64,000 nucleotides of DNA from Pseudomonadota bacterium (GTDB lineage: Bacteria > Pseudomonadota > Gammaproteobacteria > Steroidobacterales > JBCBZW01), in contig JBCBZW010000001.1 of assembly GCA_039815145.1 (NCBI GenBank), positions 62,001-126,000 on the forward strand, in the 5' to 3' direction. Shown in pieces: positions 48,736 to 53,698 of the stretch. The translations under genes were made by a program, and so were the position numbers. The notes beneath the pieces were generated by a model that had not been told where the DNA came from, made no database searches, and was given only the letters and a program-made list of their open reading frames with translations. Each line of letters starts with the position of its first letter. Positions within the stretch are counted from its first letter, which is position 1.

Positions 48736-49917
48736 TCAGCGCTCCCCGGCAGCCCCGGCGAGCGCCGTGCGAAGCCAACCGGCGTACCATGCGTCAAAGG
48801 CGTGCACGCACTCCTCGCTCGCGTGGTAGGGGCCCGGCGCGTAGCCGCGAGCACGCACACCGTCCTGGTTGCGCTCGCAGAGTTGCCAGTCTTGCCGGTT
48901 GGTCAGATCCCAAAACTGCACGGCGTCTTCGATCGCCTCACGATCGCGTAAGGCTTCCGGCAACACCAACCAGTCGCAGCTCACGCGGGTCCGGTCCGGT
49001 GCTGTCGGGGTGAGCACGTGGAGCAGCACGTAGTCGGGGTGCAGACTCAGCAGGAGATTGGGGTAGATGACGTAGTAGTGCACGAGGTGCTGATCGGATG
49101 GGGGCACCGACGCGATCCTCGGCAGGCGAGCACGCCCCGTCATCGACATGGTGCCGACACTGTCGCGCAAGGCCATGGGGCCGCCGTTGAAGGATGCACC
49201 GAAGTGGGTCGCCCCTGGCGCCGTCTTGTCACCGCCTCCTACGTAATCGCTGATCCGGGCAAGCTGCGGGTGCGACCCCGGACAGTGGTAGCACTCGCTG
49301 TAGTTCTCGCACAGGAGCTTCCAATTGGCCCGCACCTCGTACACCTCACGGTGCGCCAAGCGCAGGCTCGGCAGCGCGTAGGCCGAGAGATCGGGGAGGT
49401 CCTGCCATTGGGTCTGGAGGGCGGGGGCATCGGCGTCCAGATTGACCAGCACGTAGCCCTGCCACTCGGTCACCCCCACCGGCGCCAAGCGACGCAACGG
49501 CACCTCAGCCTGGCGAGGCACGTGGGTGAGCTCACCATCGAGCGAGTAGCACCAGGCGTGGTAGGGGCAGCGAATTTGCTCGAGCTCGCCCTCAGGTGCA
49601 TCGACCAGCCGTGAGCCGCGATGGAGGCATACGTTGTAGTGCGCGTGAAGCCGACCGTCGCTCGCCCGTGTCAGCAGCAACGGCTGGCCGAGGAGTTCAA
49701 CGCGACGAAAGCGCCCAGGTGCGGCAAGGTCCTCGACGCGTGCGACGGGGTGCCAGGCGAGCTCGAACAGCGCGGTGCGCTCGAGGCCGAGGATCTGCGG
49801 ATGGTGGAAGCAGGCGCCGGGAAGGGTGTGGGCCCGCTCGAAGCCCTCGCAGGTGTCCCCGAGGGCTTGATAGAAGCGGCTGCCGGGGGTGAGACCGGCA
49901 GCCGCAGGCGAGGTCAT
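48736..49917 (-). CDS. Rieske non-heme iron oxygenase alpha subunit, quaternary-ammonium type
   Basis: The 393-residue protein has a Rieske domain with C97-x-H99 (NVCLHRGSRL) and C117-x2-H120 (CPYHAW), then a catalytic domain with ENYSECYHCPGSHP, giving iron ligands H211 and H216 and a bridging E208. A Glu at this bridging position is typical of choline, carnitine and glycine-betaine monooxygenases; naphthalene-type enzymes have Asp. N-demethylation or hydroxylation of a quaternary amine is the likely chemistry, substrate unknown. No reductase gene is adjacent. Its ATG overlaps the stop of the PEP-CTERM gene upstream, so the two are co-translated. Confidence 0.85.
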   Translation of the reverse strand: MTSPAAAGLTPGSRFYQALGDTCEGFERAHTLPGACFHHPQILGLERTALFELAWHPVARVEDLAAPGRFRRVELLGQPLLLTRASDGRLHAHYNVCLHRGSRLVDAPEGELEQIRCPYHAWCYSLDGELTHVPRQAEVPLRRLAPVGVTEWQGYVLVNLDADAPALQTQWQDLPDLSAYALPSLRLAHREVYEVRANWKLLCENYSECYHCPGSHPQLARISDYVGGGDKTAPGATHFGASFNGGPMALRDSVGTMSMTGRARLPRIASVPPSDQHLVHYYVIYPNLLLSLHPDYVLLHVLTPTAPDRTRVSCDWLVLPEALRDREAIEDAVQFWDLTNRQDWQLCERNQDGVRARGYAPGPYHASEECVHAFDAWYAGWLRTALAGAAGER

Positions 49918-50501
49918 TTGCGGCGCGAGAACCCGAAGGCCAGACCGCCGAAGGCGAGCAGTGCCAGGACGCTGGGCTCAGCCACGTCCATCATGTCGCC
50001 CACCACGCCCGTGAAGGCGAAGTTCATCTGGCGACCGTCCTGCTCGAGGGTGGTCCCGCTCAGGAAGGCGCTGAAGACGCCGTTCTCGAGGGTGGTGGTG
50101 TTGAACGGCGTGCCGTCGATGTTTTCGTTGTTGAAGAGGATGGTGAAATCCTCGCCATCGAAGCTGCCGGTGAGCGTGCCGCCCAGGAAGCCGTCGCCAT
50201 CGTTGATGTTGAGGCTCATGCCCGAGAGCAGCAACAGGCCGGAGTCCCCGTCCGCGTTCTCCAGGAGGAACAGCTGCTCGTTGGTGAGGCTCACGATGCC
50301 GGAGGCGGCGTCGAAGTCGAACTCGAAGGGCGTGTCGTCCTCGAAGAAGAACGGCATGTCCATGCGGTCCGGCTGGTAGAAGCTGAACAGGTCCTGGTCG
50401 TCGTTGACGATGTTGCCGTCGATCAGGTCTGCGTTAGCTGCACTCGCGGCGAAGGCGAGCAGCGCGGTGGCGAAAACCGCCCGGCGGGTGTTCGTATGCA
50501 T
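49914..50501 (-). CDS. PEP-CTERM-type sorted exoprotein
   Basis: The 195-residue protein has a signal peptide (MHTNTRRAVFATALL..., cut near ASAANA) and a C-terminal sorting tail: AEPSVLALLAFGGLAFGF followed by SRRK, that is the E-P-S motif, a hydrophobic segment and a basic end, the pattern recognised by exosortase/XrtA systems. The mature part is acidic, rich in Asp, Asn, Gly and Phe and has no known domain. A perfect sigma-54 promoter match lies about 90 bases upstream, consistent with RpoN/PrsR control known for PEP-CTERM genes. Exosortase genes are not in this window. Confidence 0.85.
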   Translation of the reverse strand: MHTNTRRAVFATALLAFAASAANADLIDGNIVNDDQDLFSFYQPDRMDMPFFFEDDTPFEFDFDAASGIVSLTNEQLFLLENADGDSGLLLLSGMSLNINDGDGFLGGTLTGSFDGEDFTILFNNENIDGTPFNTTTLENGVFSAFLSGTTLEQDGRQMNFAFTGVVGDMMDVAEPSVLALLAFGGLAFGFSRRK

Positions 50502-51057
50502 CGGTCTAGCTACCTTATCGTGTCCGTACGAATGGCTCGTCGTGGGGCCCGGCATTTTGCGCTGGGCGACGAGCGGTATCCCCATCAGCGGTAGCAAGTG
50601 GCGTGCCATTCCCCGACCCACCTCAAAACTACTGCTGAATCAGCCAGCTACGCCCGGCTCAAAACCGAGTTCTCGCGCTGACCAGCCGCTACCCCCAGCG
50701 ACTGTAAAGTTTGCCGATAGTTTGTGTTGTGACTTAAGGGTGCCACATTACCCCAGCTTATCGGTAGCGTCTGCCGTCGCTGAGCGGCAACGGGTGAGCG
50801 CGCAAGCTGTCACCCAATTGTCTTGGAGCGCCAAAAACTTGACGTAGTAAGTTCGAATTCTCGGTCATATACTGAATGCTCAGGCCGGAACCCCAATGCG
50901 GGCGTGGACTTAATCCCTCCCTTATTCCCCCGGCGCCACGACAGCACAGCATAACCGCAGCGCGTAAATCTCGAGCCACTTCGCCATCAAGGCACCGCAC
51001 GCAATAGGGATCGGGGCGTCGTGTTGTGTCGTGGAGGGGCTCTCTCGGAGTTCTGGA
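50502..51057. other. 556-base intergenic region between PEP-CTERM and RRM genes
   Basis: This is the longest gap in the window. It holds the sigma-54 promoter for the minus-strand gene. On the plus strand TTGACG (50839-50844) and TATACT (50868-50873) look like promoter boxes but are 23 bases apart, so only one is likely used; the RRM transcript would then have a leader of about 180 bases. TGCCG/CGGCA (around 50771-50789) can form a small stem. No convincing small gene is visible. Confidence 0.5.
50593..50608 (-). promoter_or_regulatory. sigma-54 (RpoN) -24/-12 promoter
   Basis: The minus strand reads TGGCACGCCACTTGCT, a perfect fit to the consensus TGGCACR-N4-TTGCW, with GG and GC separated by exactly 10 bases. 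Transcription would start near 50583 and give a leader of about 80 bases before the PEP-CTERM gene. An 11-base palindrome GCTGA-T-TCAGC (50634-50644) lies upstream; its role is unknown. Confidence 0.85.
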
Positions 51058-51342
51058 ATGACCAAGCTTTATGTAGGAAATCTGCCCTGGCGCGCATCAG
51101 ATGAAGATCTGCGCGACCTGTTCGCCAATATCGGCGAGGTGCACTCGGCGGTGGTGATCACCGATCGGGAGACCGGCAGATCACGAGGGTTCGGTTTCGT
51201 GGAAATGGAGTCTGGCGACGCCGCCAACGCCATCTCGGAACTGAACGGCAAGGACTACGGCGGTCGCCCGCTGCGCGTGAACGAAGCGCAGGAGCGTGAG
51301 CGTCGGCCTCGCCCTGGCGGCGGCGGCCCGCCCCGCCACTGA
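51058..51342 (+). CDS. RRM-domain RNA-binding protein
   Basis: The 94-residue protein is one RNA-recognition motif: RNP2 is KLYVGNLPW and RNP1 is RGFGFVEM, followed by a short Arg/Pro/Gly tail. Such glycine/arginine-tailed RRM proteins in bacteria are often cold- or stress-induced RNA chaperones. I chose the ATG at 51058, 7 bases after GGAG. Two hairpins follow the stop. Confidence 0.92.
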   Translation: MTKLYVGNLPWRASDEDLRDLFANIGEVHSAVVITDRETGRSRGFGFVEMESGDAANAISELNGKDYGGRPLRVNEAQERERRPRPGGGGPPRH

Positions 51343-51427: not shown

Positions 51428-53698
51428 TTACCCTGCCAGGGGGCGGATTTGCTTCGGCGCCTGATCCATCTGGGGATCCTCCGCCTCGAGCACGATGATG
51501 TCGTCGCCGGTTTGCACACCGGTGCCTGCCGACGCCATCGCCTCTCGGGCTGCTTCGTTACCCGGCTGCCTCGCGCTCGGCGGCATCAACCCCGTCGTGA
51601 AGTCTTCTGCGGCCATCGGTTTGCCGTACAAGAAGCCCTGAACCTCCTCGCAGCGTAGCGCCCGAAGCAGCGTCAACTGCTCCTCAGATTCCACGCCCTC
51701 AGCGCAGACGCGCAGGCCCAGTGCCTGGGCCAGCTGCACCGTGAACCTCACGATCACCTCGTCGGTCTGGTTCACGCCCAGCCCCTTGATGAAGCTGCGG
51801 TCGATCTTCAGCGTATCGACGGGCAGCTCGCGCAGGTAGCTCAGGGAGCTGTAACCGGTGCCGTAGTCATCGATCGCCACCCGCACCCCGATCTGCCGGC
51901 GTGCCTCGAGCAACCGTGAGGCCAACTCGAGGTCGCTGAGCAGGGTGTTCTCGGTGATCTCCAGCTCCAGGCAGGCGGGCGCGACATGCTCGTTGCGCAG
52001 CACCAGCTCGATGTGCTCGAACAGATGCGGATCCTGGAATTGGCGGGGCGAGATGTTGACGGACATGACGAAGCGACGGTCCACCAACCCCAGACTCTGC
52101 CATTGACGCAGCTGACGAATCGCTTCGGCCACCACAAAGCGACCGAGCTCCACGATCAGGCCGAGCTCCTCGGCTAACGGGATGAACTCAGAAGGCGGCA
52201 CCAGCGAGCCGTCCTCCGCACGCATGCGCAGGAGTGCCTCGGCGCCGCCGACACGCCCCTCCTCGAGATCGATGCGAGGCTGGTAGTAGACCAGGAAGCG
52301 ACCGTCGTCGAGGGCCGAACGAAGGGCAGCCTCCCGCCCCCAGCGCTCACGAATCTGCTCCTCGATGGTGACGTCGAAGGCGACGGCGCGACCGCCGCCC
52401 GCTCGGACCGCGGCACCGAGCGCAGCCTCGCTGGCCCGCACCAGGGTTTCCGGGTCCTCGGCGTGGAGGGGGTACAACGCCACGCCTGCACTCACGCTCA
52501 GATAGATGCGTTGACCACCCACCTCGAAGGGCAGCTCGAGCTCGGATCGCAGGCGATCGGCCACCTCGAGCGCCACCGGCACTCCATCGATCTTGCCCAG
52601 CAGCACGGCGAACTCCGCGCGCCCCACGCGAGCCGCGATGTCCTGCCGGCGACCGCGACGTGCGCCTGGGCCAGGCTTACGTTCACGATAGCGGATCGCT
52701 GAGTTGAGCCTGGCGCCGATCAAACGCAGTAGCTCATCGTGTTGCTCGCGCGACAGAGACTCGGCGACGCGGCGAAACTCATCCAGGCCGAGGCGCACCA
52801 GCGCCGACTTCGCCCCACGCCCCGTGTGGCGGGCGAGCCAGCTGTCCAACTGGCTCTCGTTCGGCAAGCGGGTGACGGGATCGTAGTTCGCCAGATAGCG
52901 CAACTGCGCCTGCTGCGAGCGTTGGTCGGTGATGTCGAGCACGGATCCGACCAGCGTAGGCTCGTCCGCCAGCTCTTCGCTCTCCTGCTGTCCGCCGAGC
53001 TGGACGGTGCGCAGCTTGCCGTCACCACTCAGCACGCGGCACTCGAAGCTGAAGGAGGTGCCTTGATCCATCGCCGTGACGAAGGCATCGGCGACCATGG
53101 AGGAGTCCTCCGGATGCAGCCAACCGAGCAGATCGGCGAGCGTGCTCAAGCTCGATCCATCGGTAGCCTTGAGGATGCGTACGAGCTCGTCGGAACAGCT
53201 GAGCCGCCCCGACTTGCAGCCCAAGCGCCAATCACCCAGGTGAGCGACCCGCTGCGCCGCCTCCAGGCGCTGCTGACTGCGCTGGAGCGAGCGTGTCACC
53301 TCGCGGGCCTGTAGCAGCTGCTCCAAGCGGCGCTGAAGAATGAGGTACTTGGCTGGGCGCGCGATGCAATCCGTCGCCCCCGCCCCGAAGGCCGCCTCGA
53401 GCAGCGCCTCGGCGCCTGCCTCTCGGCTCATCGCGATCAGCACCAGATGCTCGCTGCCGGGAAGCGCCCGGAATTGGCGACACAGGTGAAGGCCCTCGCT
53501 CTGACTCGGCCCTTCGCCGCCGGCGAGCTCGAACAACACGGCCGCAGGCCGCAGGCGAAGGAACTCCTGGAAGGCATCGCGAAGCGACGCGGCGACCGCC
53601 ACTTGATAGCCGGCTCGCGCGAGCGCGTCGCTGAGCGAGTCGCGCAGCAGCGGATCGGAGTCGATGATGAGTAGGCGCTGCGGTTCCGTCATCGTCAC
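51428..53698 (-). CDS. REC-PAS-GGDEF-EAL signalling protein, probable cyclic-di-GMP phosphodiesterase
   Basis: The 756-residue protein has an N-terminal receiver-like domain (about 6-130), a PAS domain (about 145-260), a GGDEF-like domain (about 275-440) and an EAL domain (about 455-700). The receiver has FELAGGEG where the phospho-acceptor Asp is expected, and the GGDEF signature reads GRAEF, so both are probably inactive. The EAL domain is intact: EALLRM, NISPRQFQ, ELEITENTLL, DDYGTGYSSL, LKIDRSFIKG and CAEGVESEEQ. The net role should be cyclic-di-GMP hydrolysis, perhaps gated by PAS. The start is GTG 53698 or ATG 53692. Confidence 0.88.
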   Translation of the reverse strand: MTMTEPQRLLIIDSDPLLRDSLSDALARAGYQVAVAASLRDAFQEFLRLRPAAVLFELAGGEGPSQSEGLHLCRQFRALPGSEHLVLIAMSREAGAEALLEAAFGAGATDCIARPAKYLILQRRLEQLLQAREVTRSLQRSQQRLEAAQRVAHLGDWRLGCKSGRLSCSDELVRILKATDGSSLSTLADLLGWLHPEDSSMVADAFVTAMDQGTSFSFECRVLSGDGKLRTVQLGGQQESEELADEPTLVGSVLDITDQRSQQAQLRYLANYDPVTRLPNESQLDSWLARHTGRGAKSALVRLGLDEFRRVAESLSREQHDELLRLIGARLNSAIRYRERKPGPGARRGRRQDIAARVGRAEFAVLLGKIDGVPVALEVADRLRSELELPFEVGGQRIYLSVSAGVALYPLHAEDPETLVRASEAALGAAVRAGGGRAVAFDVTIEEQIRERWGREAALRSALDDGRFLVYYQPRIDLEEGRVGGAEALLRMRAEDGSLVPPSEFIPLAEELGLIVELGRFVVAEAIRQLRQWQSLGLVDRRFVMSVNISPRQFQDPHLFEHIELVLRNEHVAPACLELEITENTLLSDLELASRLLEARRQIGVRVAIDDYGTGYSSLSYLRELPVDTLKIDRSFIKGLGVNQTDEVIVRFTVQLAQALGLRVCAEGVESEEQLTLLRALRCEEVQGFLYGKPMAAEDFTTGLMPPSARQPGNEAAREAMASAGTGVQTGDDIIVLEAEDPQMDQAPKQIRPLAG

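Follow-up and report, generated by a model that had tools for sequence, protein, structure and literature searches.

A probable two-part sigma-54 promoter of the PrsK/PrsR type before a PEP-CTERM gene, and its apparent link to EP-type sorting tails

The site that precedes proteobacterial PEP-CTERM genes has been described as having two parts (Haft et al. 2006; PMC1569441). Motif 1 is 17 nt long with TTTACA at its end, motif 2 is of the sigma-54 type, and the spacer between them measures 62.8 ± 10.6 nt (range 32-92). That paper also records a small number of sites in front of genes of other kinds and calls the trigger of the PrsK signal obscure. The pepA gene of Aquincola tertiaricarbonis RN12 is RpoN1-dependent and its transcription start has been mapped (PMC9850573), and a PEP-CTERM gene of Zoogloea is reported to depend on PrsK/PrsR (PMC9012009).

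Here we consider a regulatory element in the intergenic region 50502-51057 of a 64-kb window, the whole stretch of DNA that was analysed, which lies between a PEP-CTERM gene and the divergent gene of an RRM protein. The window was compared with its source genome (G000; 6.0 Mb in 295 contigs) and with one genome of the same genus (G001). We propose that positions 50593-50609 are where RNA polymerase binds in an enhancer-dependent promoter made of two elements, which would be driven by PrsK/PrsR and would serve a regulon of exosortase A (XrtA) cargo proteins, a reading to which we give a probability of about 0.88.

The element and the gene it precedes

A preliminary description of this DNA had noted a perfect -24/-12 match, and this is confirmed, since on the minus strand at 50593-50608 TGGCACGCCACTTGCT agrees with the consensus TGGCACGNNNNTTGCW at all fixed positions, has GG-N10-GC spacing and is the sole exact match in the window. 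If up to two mismatches are allowed the window contains 10 matches, where shuffled sequence would lead one to expect 11.9, so that only the exact match is notable. Base composition predicts about 0.015 exact matches per window and about 1.4 per genome, and seven were observed in the genome; the 16-mer by itself is therefore suggestive, and it is a second element, motif 1, placed 93 nt upstream, that lifts it above chance. Taken at its 17-nt length, motif 2 (ATGGCACGCCACTTGCT; 50593-50609, minus strand) is identical in G001 and its end lies 91 nt from the start codon. Transcripts from -24/-12 promoters usually start about 12 nt past the GC, which would place the start here at about 50582 (50575-50590, minus strand). 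We regard 50593-50608 as almost certainly a genuine sigma-54-type on-switch of a known type.

Motif 1 (TATCGGCAAACTTTACA; 50703-50719, minus strand) is the predicted upstream activator site and the putative PrsR site. Its 93-nt spacer to motif 2 is the longest among the boxed PEP-CTERM genes of G000 and G001 (the others have 61-84) and is one base beyond the published range, which is within the uncertainty of the motif boundaries; the window copy reads TATCG, most others YGTCG. In G001, the only same-genus genome compared, motif 1 reads TATCGACATACTTTACA, with two bases different, both halves are kept at identical spacing, and the orthologue of the window gene is 87% identical.

A -24/-12-like site was present in 72 of 3000 random 350-nt stretches drawn from the window, and motif 1 together with motif 2 in none of them. 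The pattern TTTACA-N36..96-TGGCNCN5TTGCW occurs five times in the 6.0-Mb genome versus zero times for a reversed-pattern control. Motif 1 alone (YRYCGRNNNNNYTTACA) gives 18 matches in G000 against two in the reversed control, a count that is partly circular because the pattern was derived from eight PEP-CTERM genes of that genome, and 26 against five in G001. A TTTACA pair at C1:236897 and a motif-1 match at C7:85441, both of which appear to lie within coding sequence, were set aside as chance. Compared with Haft et al. (2006) by its TTTACA end and 17-nt length, the other positions having been derived from G000, the window pair is on sequence grounds their two-part "motif 1 + motif 2" site.

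The gene downstream (49914-50501, minus strand) encodes 195 amino acids, in which a beta-rich domain lies between a signal peptide and a sorting tail, VAEPSVLALLAFGGLAFGFSRRK, as judged from profile matches, sequence and a structure model. It starts at ATG 50501, which is followed by the signal peptide; an upstream start at GTG 50621 was rejected, as the signal peptide begins at ATG 50501 and the upstream stretch shows single-base indels relative to G001. The tail reads VAEPS and not the canonical PEP, and is a weak PEP-CTERM match. TIGR02595 gives it 21.0 bits, above the cut-off of 16 and with E 0.006 in a search of one genome, whereas with Pfam PF07589 it has 17.9 bits and does not reach the required 20.7. 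The preliminary description was right to call it a PEP-CTERM gene. In the structure model (mean pLDDT 73.9) an N-terminal helix (2-21) is followed by beta strands and a C-terminal helix (176-193), and the protein is predicted from sequence and model to have an N-terminal signal peptide and a C-terminal membrane helix with a basic end. Comparison of the model with solved structures gave 0 of 1173 matches at E <= 0.001, and a search of the named-genome collection found no relative.

The stop codon of the PEP-CTERM gene and the ATG of a gene for the alpha subunit of a Rieske ring-hydroxylating oxygenase (48736-49917, minus strand; PF00848 180 bits, PF00355 72 bits) overlap by 4 nt in the ATGA at 49914-49917, and this overlap is kept in G001. 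The Rieske oxygenase gene would thus probably be the second gene of the PEP-CTERM transcript. The window protein had been called an orphan exoprotein, and its gene is unlinked to that of exosortase A; because of the overlap the gene is probably not transcribed alone. On the other side of the element lie the small RRM RNA-binding protein gene (51058-51342, plus strand) and a gene for a GGDEF/EAL response-regulator protein (51428-53698, minus strand).

Regulatory genes of the genome and readings of the promoter

The proposed link to this regulon presupposed that the genome has RpoN and an exosortase system, and both are present. There is one rpoN locus (PF04552 232 bits, TIGR02395 475 bits), and contig C8 carries genes for PrsR (738 bits, cut-off 502.6), PrsK (712 bits, cut-off 300), PrsT (474 bits, cut-off 312.2) and exosortase A (TIGR03109 328 bits, cut-off 208). 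The XrtA-locus models TIGR03108, 03019, 03006, 03007, 03027 and 03013 are also above their cut-offs on C8, where XrtA export, chain-length, deacetylase, FemAB, amidotransferase and sugar-transferase genes were found, and the ATPase model TIGR03015 is just below (310.9 bits, cut-off 324.5). The XrtA polysaccharide locus of G000 is nearly complete. A second exosortase, on contig C6, is XrtD, of the VPLPA-specific type (TIGR04152 597 bits, cut-off 400).

From these genes and the paired elements we infer the following mechanism. PrsK, a membrane kinase, would phosphorylate PrsR, which would bind at 50703-50719 and, through a DNA loop, meet the sigma-54 polymerase held closed at 50593-50609, where the AAA+ domain of PrsR would open the promoter. 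The transcript from about 50582 would cover the PEP-CTERM gene and would probably run on into the Rieske oxygenase gene that overlaps it, and the exported protein would be processed by the unlinked exosortase A.

A real sigma-54 promoter could instead answer to another NtrC-type activator, such as one that controls flagella or pili. The PrsR model has about 15 long matches in the genome, of which one is above the cut-off and the others look like other sigma-54 activators, and several exact -24/-12 sites stand before flagellar-looking genes. These flagellar-type promoters, whose genes were judged by eye, have the exact -24/-12 core in common with the window site, but no motif 1 of the TTTAC type was seen in the 200 nt upstream of them that were examined, whereas the window has motif 1, rightly placed and common to other PEP-CTERM genes, and we think it improbable that an activator other than PrsR is responsible. 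The same comparison refines the earlier claim of a link to PrsK/PrsR, in that the link is supported but an isolated -24/-12 match does not indicate it, because other exact matches in G000 precede flagellar-looking genes without the upstream site; the specificity for the PrsR regulon comes from motif 1, which was absent from the preliminary description. That the 16-mer is a chance match, with the gene read from an ordinary sigma-70 promoter, would be in keeping with the roughly 1.4 exact matches expected for a genome of this size and composition. It is very unlikely indeed, given the position 91 nt before the start, the motif 1 upstream, the conservation in G001 and the enrichment before EP-tailed genes described below, and a PrsK/PrsR-driven promoter is the reading that we retain.

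The box and the sorting tails of PEP-CTERM genes

At E <= 1, TIGR02595 matches 28 places in G000, of which 26 were used; 16 of these have EP-like tails, a single SAP tail included, and the other 10 have VPxPA-like tails; L087 (a match inside an unrelated longer frame, not PEP-CTERM) and L079 (starting at a contig edge) were left out. For G001, 28 of 31 places were used; L128 and L140, whose frames are broken or very short, were left out, as was C4:57863, which lacks a locus assignment. The tail class and start codon of each gene were assigned by eye. A box was defined as a -24/-12 element that scores 10 or more and lies no further than 350 nt from the start, by a matrix written from the published consensus and not fitted to data, together with a motif 1 in which one mismatch was allowed.

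The search of other PEP-CTERM genes that had been suggested found the same promoter at 9 of the 16 EP-tailed genes of G000 (the window gene included), against 0 of 10 VPxPA-tailed genes (Fisher p 0.0037), and at 10 of 18 against 0 of 10 in G001, two counts that are not independent, as most of these genes are orthologues present in both genomes. Seven of the 16 EP-tailed genes of G000 are without the box; the proportion of nine in 16 is close to the published 99 of 167 (Haft et al. 2006; PMC1569441). With the -24/-12 element alone the split in G001 is 10 of 18 EP versus 2 of 10 VPxPA (p 0.076), two VPxPA-tailed genes there having a -24/-12-like site, at 316 and 325 nt upstream, that no motif 1 accompanies. 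L070, whose -24/-12-like site is some 600 nt upstream of the chosen start, was counted as having none. The box seems reserved for EP-tailed proteins, and the window gene would be one of a dispersed XrtA-cargo regulon, the box also preceding eight other EP-tailed genes. The orthologous EP-tailed genes L082 (G000) and L131 (G001) are 81% identical and form one pair with the same tail class in which the box differs, being present in L131 and absent in L082, where it has possibly decayed.

When the protein bodies were clustered without their tails, two families with mixed tails were obtained. In one, L033, L067 and L086 of G000 and L124 and L141 of G001 have an EP tail and the box, and L083 and L144 have a VPxPA tail and no box, L067 (EP) and L083 (VPxPA) being 52% identical. 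In the window gene's own family, L068 (the window gene), L135, L090 and L091 have an EP tail, a -24/-12 element and motif 1, with spacers of 93, 93, 148 and 81 nt, of which the 148 of L090 exceeds the limits of the box count and is accepted under a looser rule only, and L092 and L093 have a VPxPA tail and neither element. By these comparisons, tail and box change together in two homologous families, the window gene's own included.

Box sites outside PEP-CTERM genes, and known systems

Of the 18 motif-1 matches in G000, twelve are followed by a -24/-12 site after a spacer of 61-93 nt, eight of them before PEP-CTERM genes and four not, and all four of the latter recur in G001 with identical motif 1. 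The box at C2:38506 precedes a gene for a product of 101 residues (region C2:38073-38522; L151 4073-4522), and the single-sequence model of this protein (pLDDT 70.6) matches PilZ domains (best 4rt0, E 5.9e-05), with a Pfam PilZ score of 17.5, below the cut-off of 22.5. Between the two genomes this gene has 31 synonymous and no other codon changes, and no relative of its product was found in the named-genome collection. The box at C24:16229 precedes a 48-codon frame (region C24:15950-16245; L150) that is open in G001, and its coding status is only suggested because 11 synonymous changes stand against 11 others. At C13:58416 (C13:58416-58740; L149) the box is followed by a stretch of about 200 nt that ends in a strong terminator (z-score -4.95) and has 92% mean column identity with G001, two paired changes and no conserved reading frame, and which we regard from its structure and conservation as a candidate sigma-54-driven small RNA. 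The conserved box at C8:77841 (C8:77841-77939; L148) is on the contig of prsK, prsR and xrtA, and no convincing frame was seen downstream of it. When the C8 and C13 stretches were compared with Rfam, tRNAs were the only matches.

Two further places in G000 were noted. At C133:651 (L116) motif 1 is followed about 140 nt on by a GG-N10-GC site, as read by eye, and in both genomes these precede a short frame with a signal-peptide-like start. At C65:4144-5705 an exact -24/-12 site stands before a gene that by eye resembles those for polysaccharide-export lipoproteins, just downstream of another NtrC-type regulator, and no TTTACA was seen upstream.

We tentatively suggest, as a model that could well hold but falls somewhat short of probable, that in genomes with two exosortases the XrtA tag is linked to the PrsR/sigma-54 promoter and the XrtD tag is without it, so that a family that changes its tag also changes its promoter. 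In this model the PrsR regulon would not be confined to cargo but would take in a c-di-GMP receptor with a PilZ fold, a protein of 48 residues and a structured small RNA driven by sigma-54, and would tie the production of matrix proteins to c-di-GMP and RNA control. The split between EP and VPxPA genes might instead have been inherited along a small number of gene families that have common ancestors, with no regulatory rule tied to the exosortases, an explanation that bears on the split and not on the identity of the promoter. It is favoured by the small numbers of genes (26 in G000 and 28 in G001), most of them orthologous so that the counts are not independent, but in both mixed families the EP-tailed members are boxed and their VPxPA-tailed homologues are not, and we therefore take common ancestry to be a serious possibility, if a rather doubtful one.

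If the main reading is correct, a sixteen-base match found by eye is a genuine member of a regulon dispersed over a 6-Mb genome. Where a cell has two exosortases, the promoter would predict which of them the tag of a cargo protein is meant for. The targets other than cargo that are conserved in G001 (the PilZ-fold protein, the small open reading frame and the candidate small RNA) would provide testable outputs of the PrsK signal.

The closest described system is that of Haft et al. (2006), with which the window site shares the order of its parts, from a motif 1 of 17 nt that has TTTACA at its end, through a spacer and a -24/-12 element, to the start codon, and the co-occurrence of PrsK, PrsR and PrsT. 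It differs in the distance from motif 2 to the start (a published mean of 71 nt against 91 here), in the spacer (32-92 against 93 nt) and in that the published sites mostly serve single genes, whereas a two-gene transcript with the Rieske oxygenase is probable here. Aquincola pepA is likewise a PEP-CTERM gene with a TGGCAC/-12 element, an upstream enhancer and PrsK/PrsR in the genome, but it adjoins prsT and has a mapped start, whereas the window gene is unlinked and known here from sequence. We found no publication on a box split by exosortase tail, or on a PilZ or small-RNA target of PrsR, in a search that covers subscription journals poorly and is weak evidence. The kind of promoter is already known from these systems; what appears, within the reach of this search, to go beyond Haft et al. 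(2006) is the probable two-gene transcript with the Rieske oxygenase, the link from tail to promoter, and the box sites that both genomes keep before genes other than cargo, the last two being computational results mainly from one genus.
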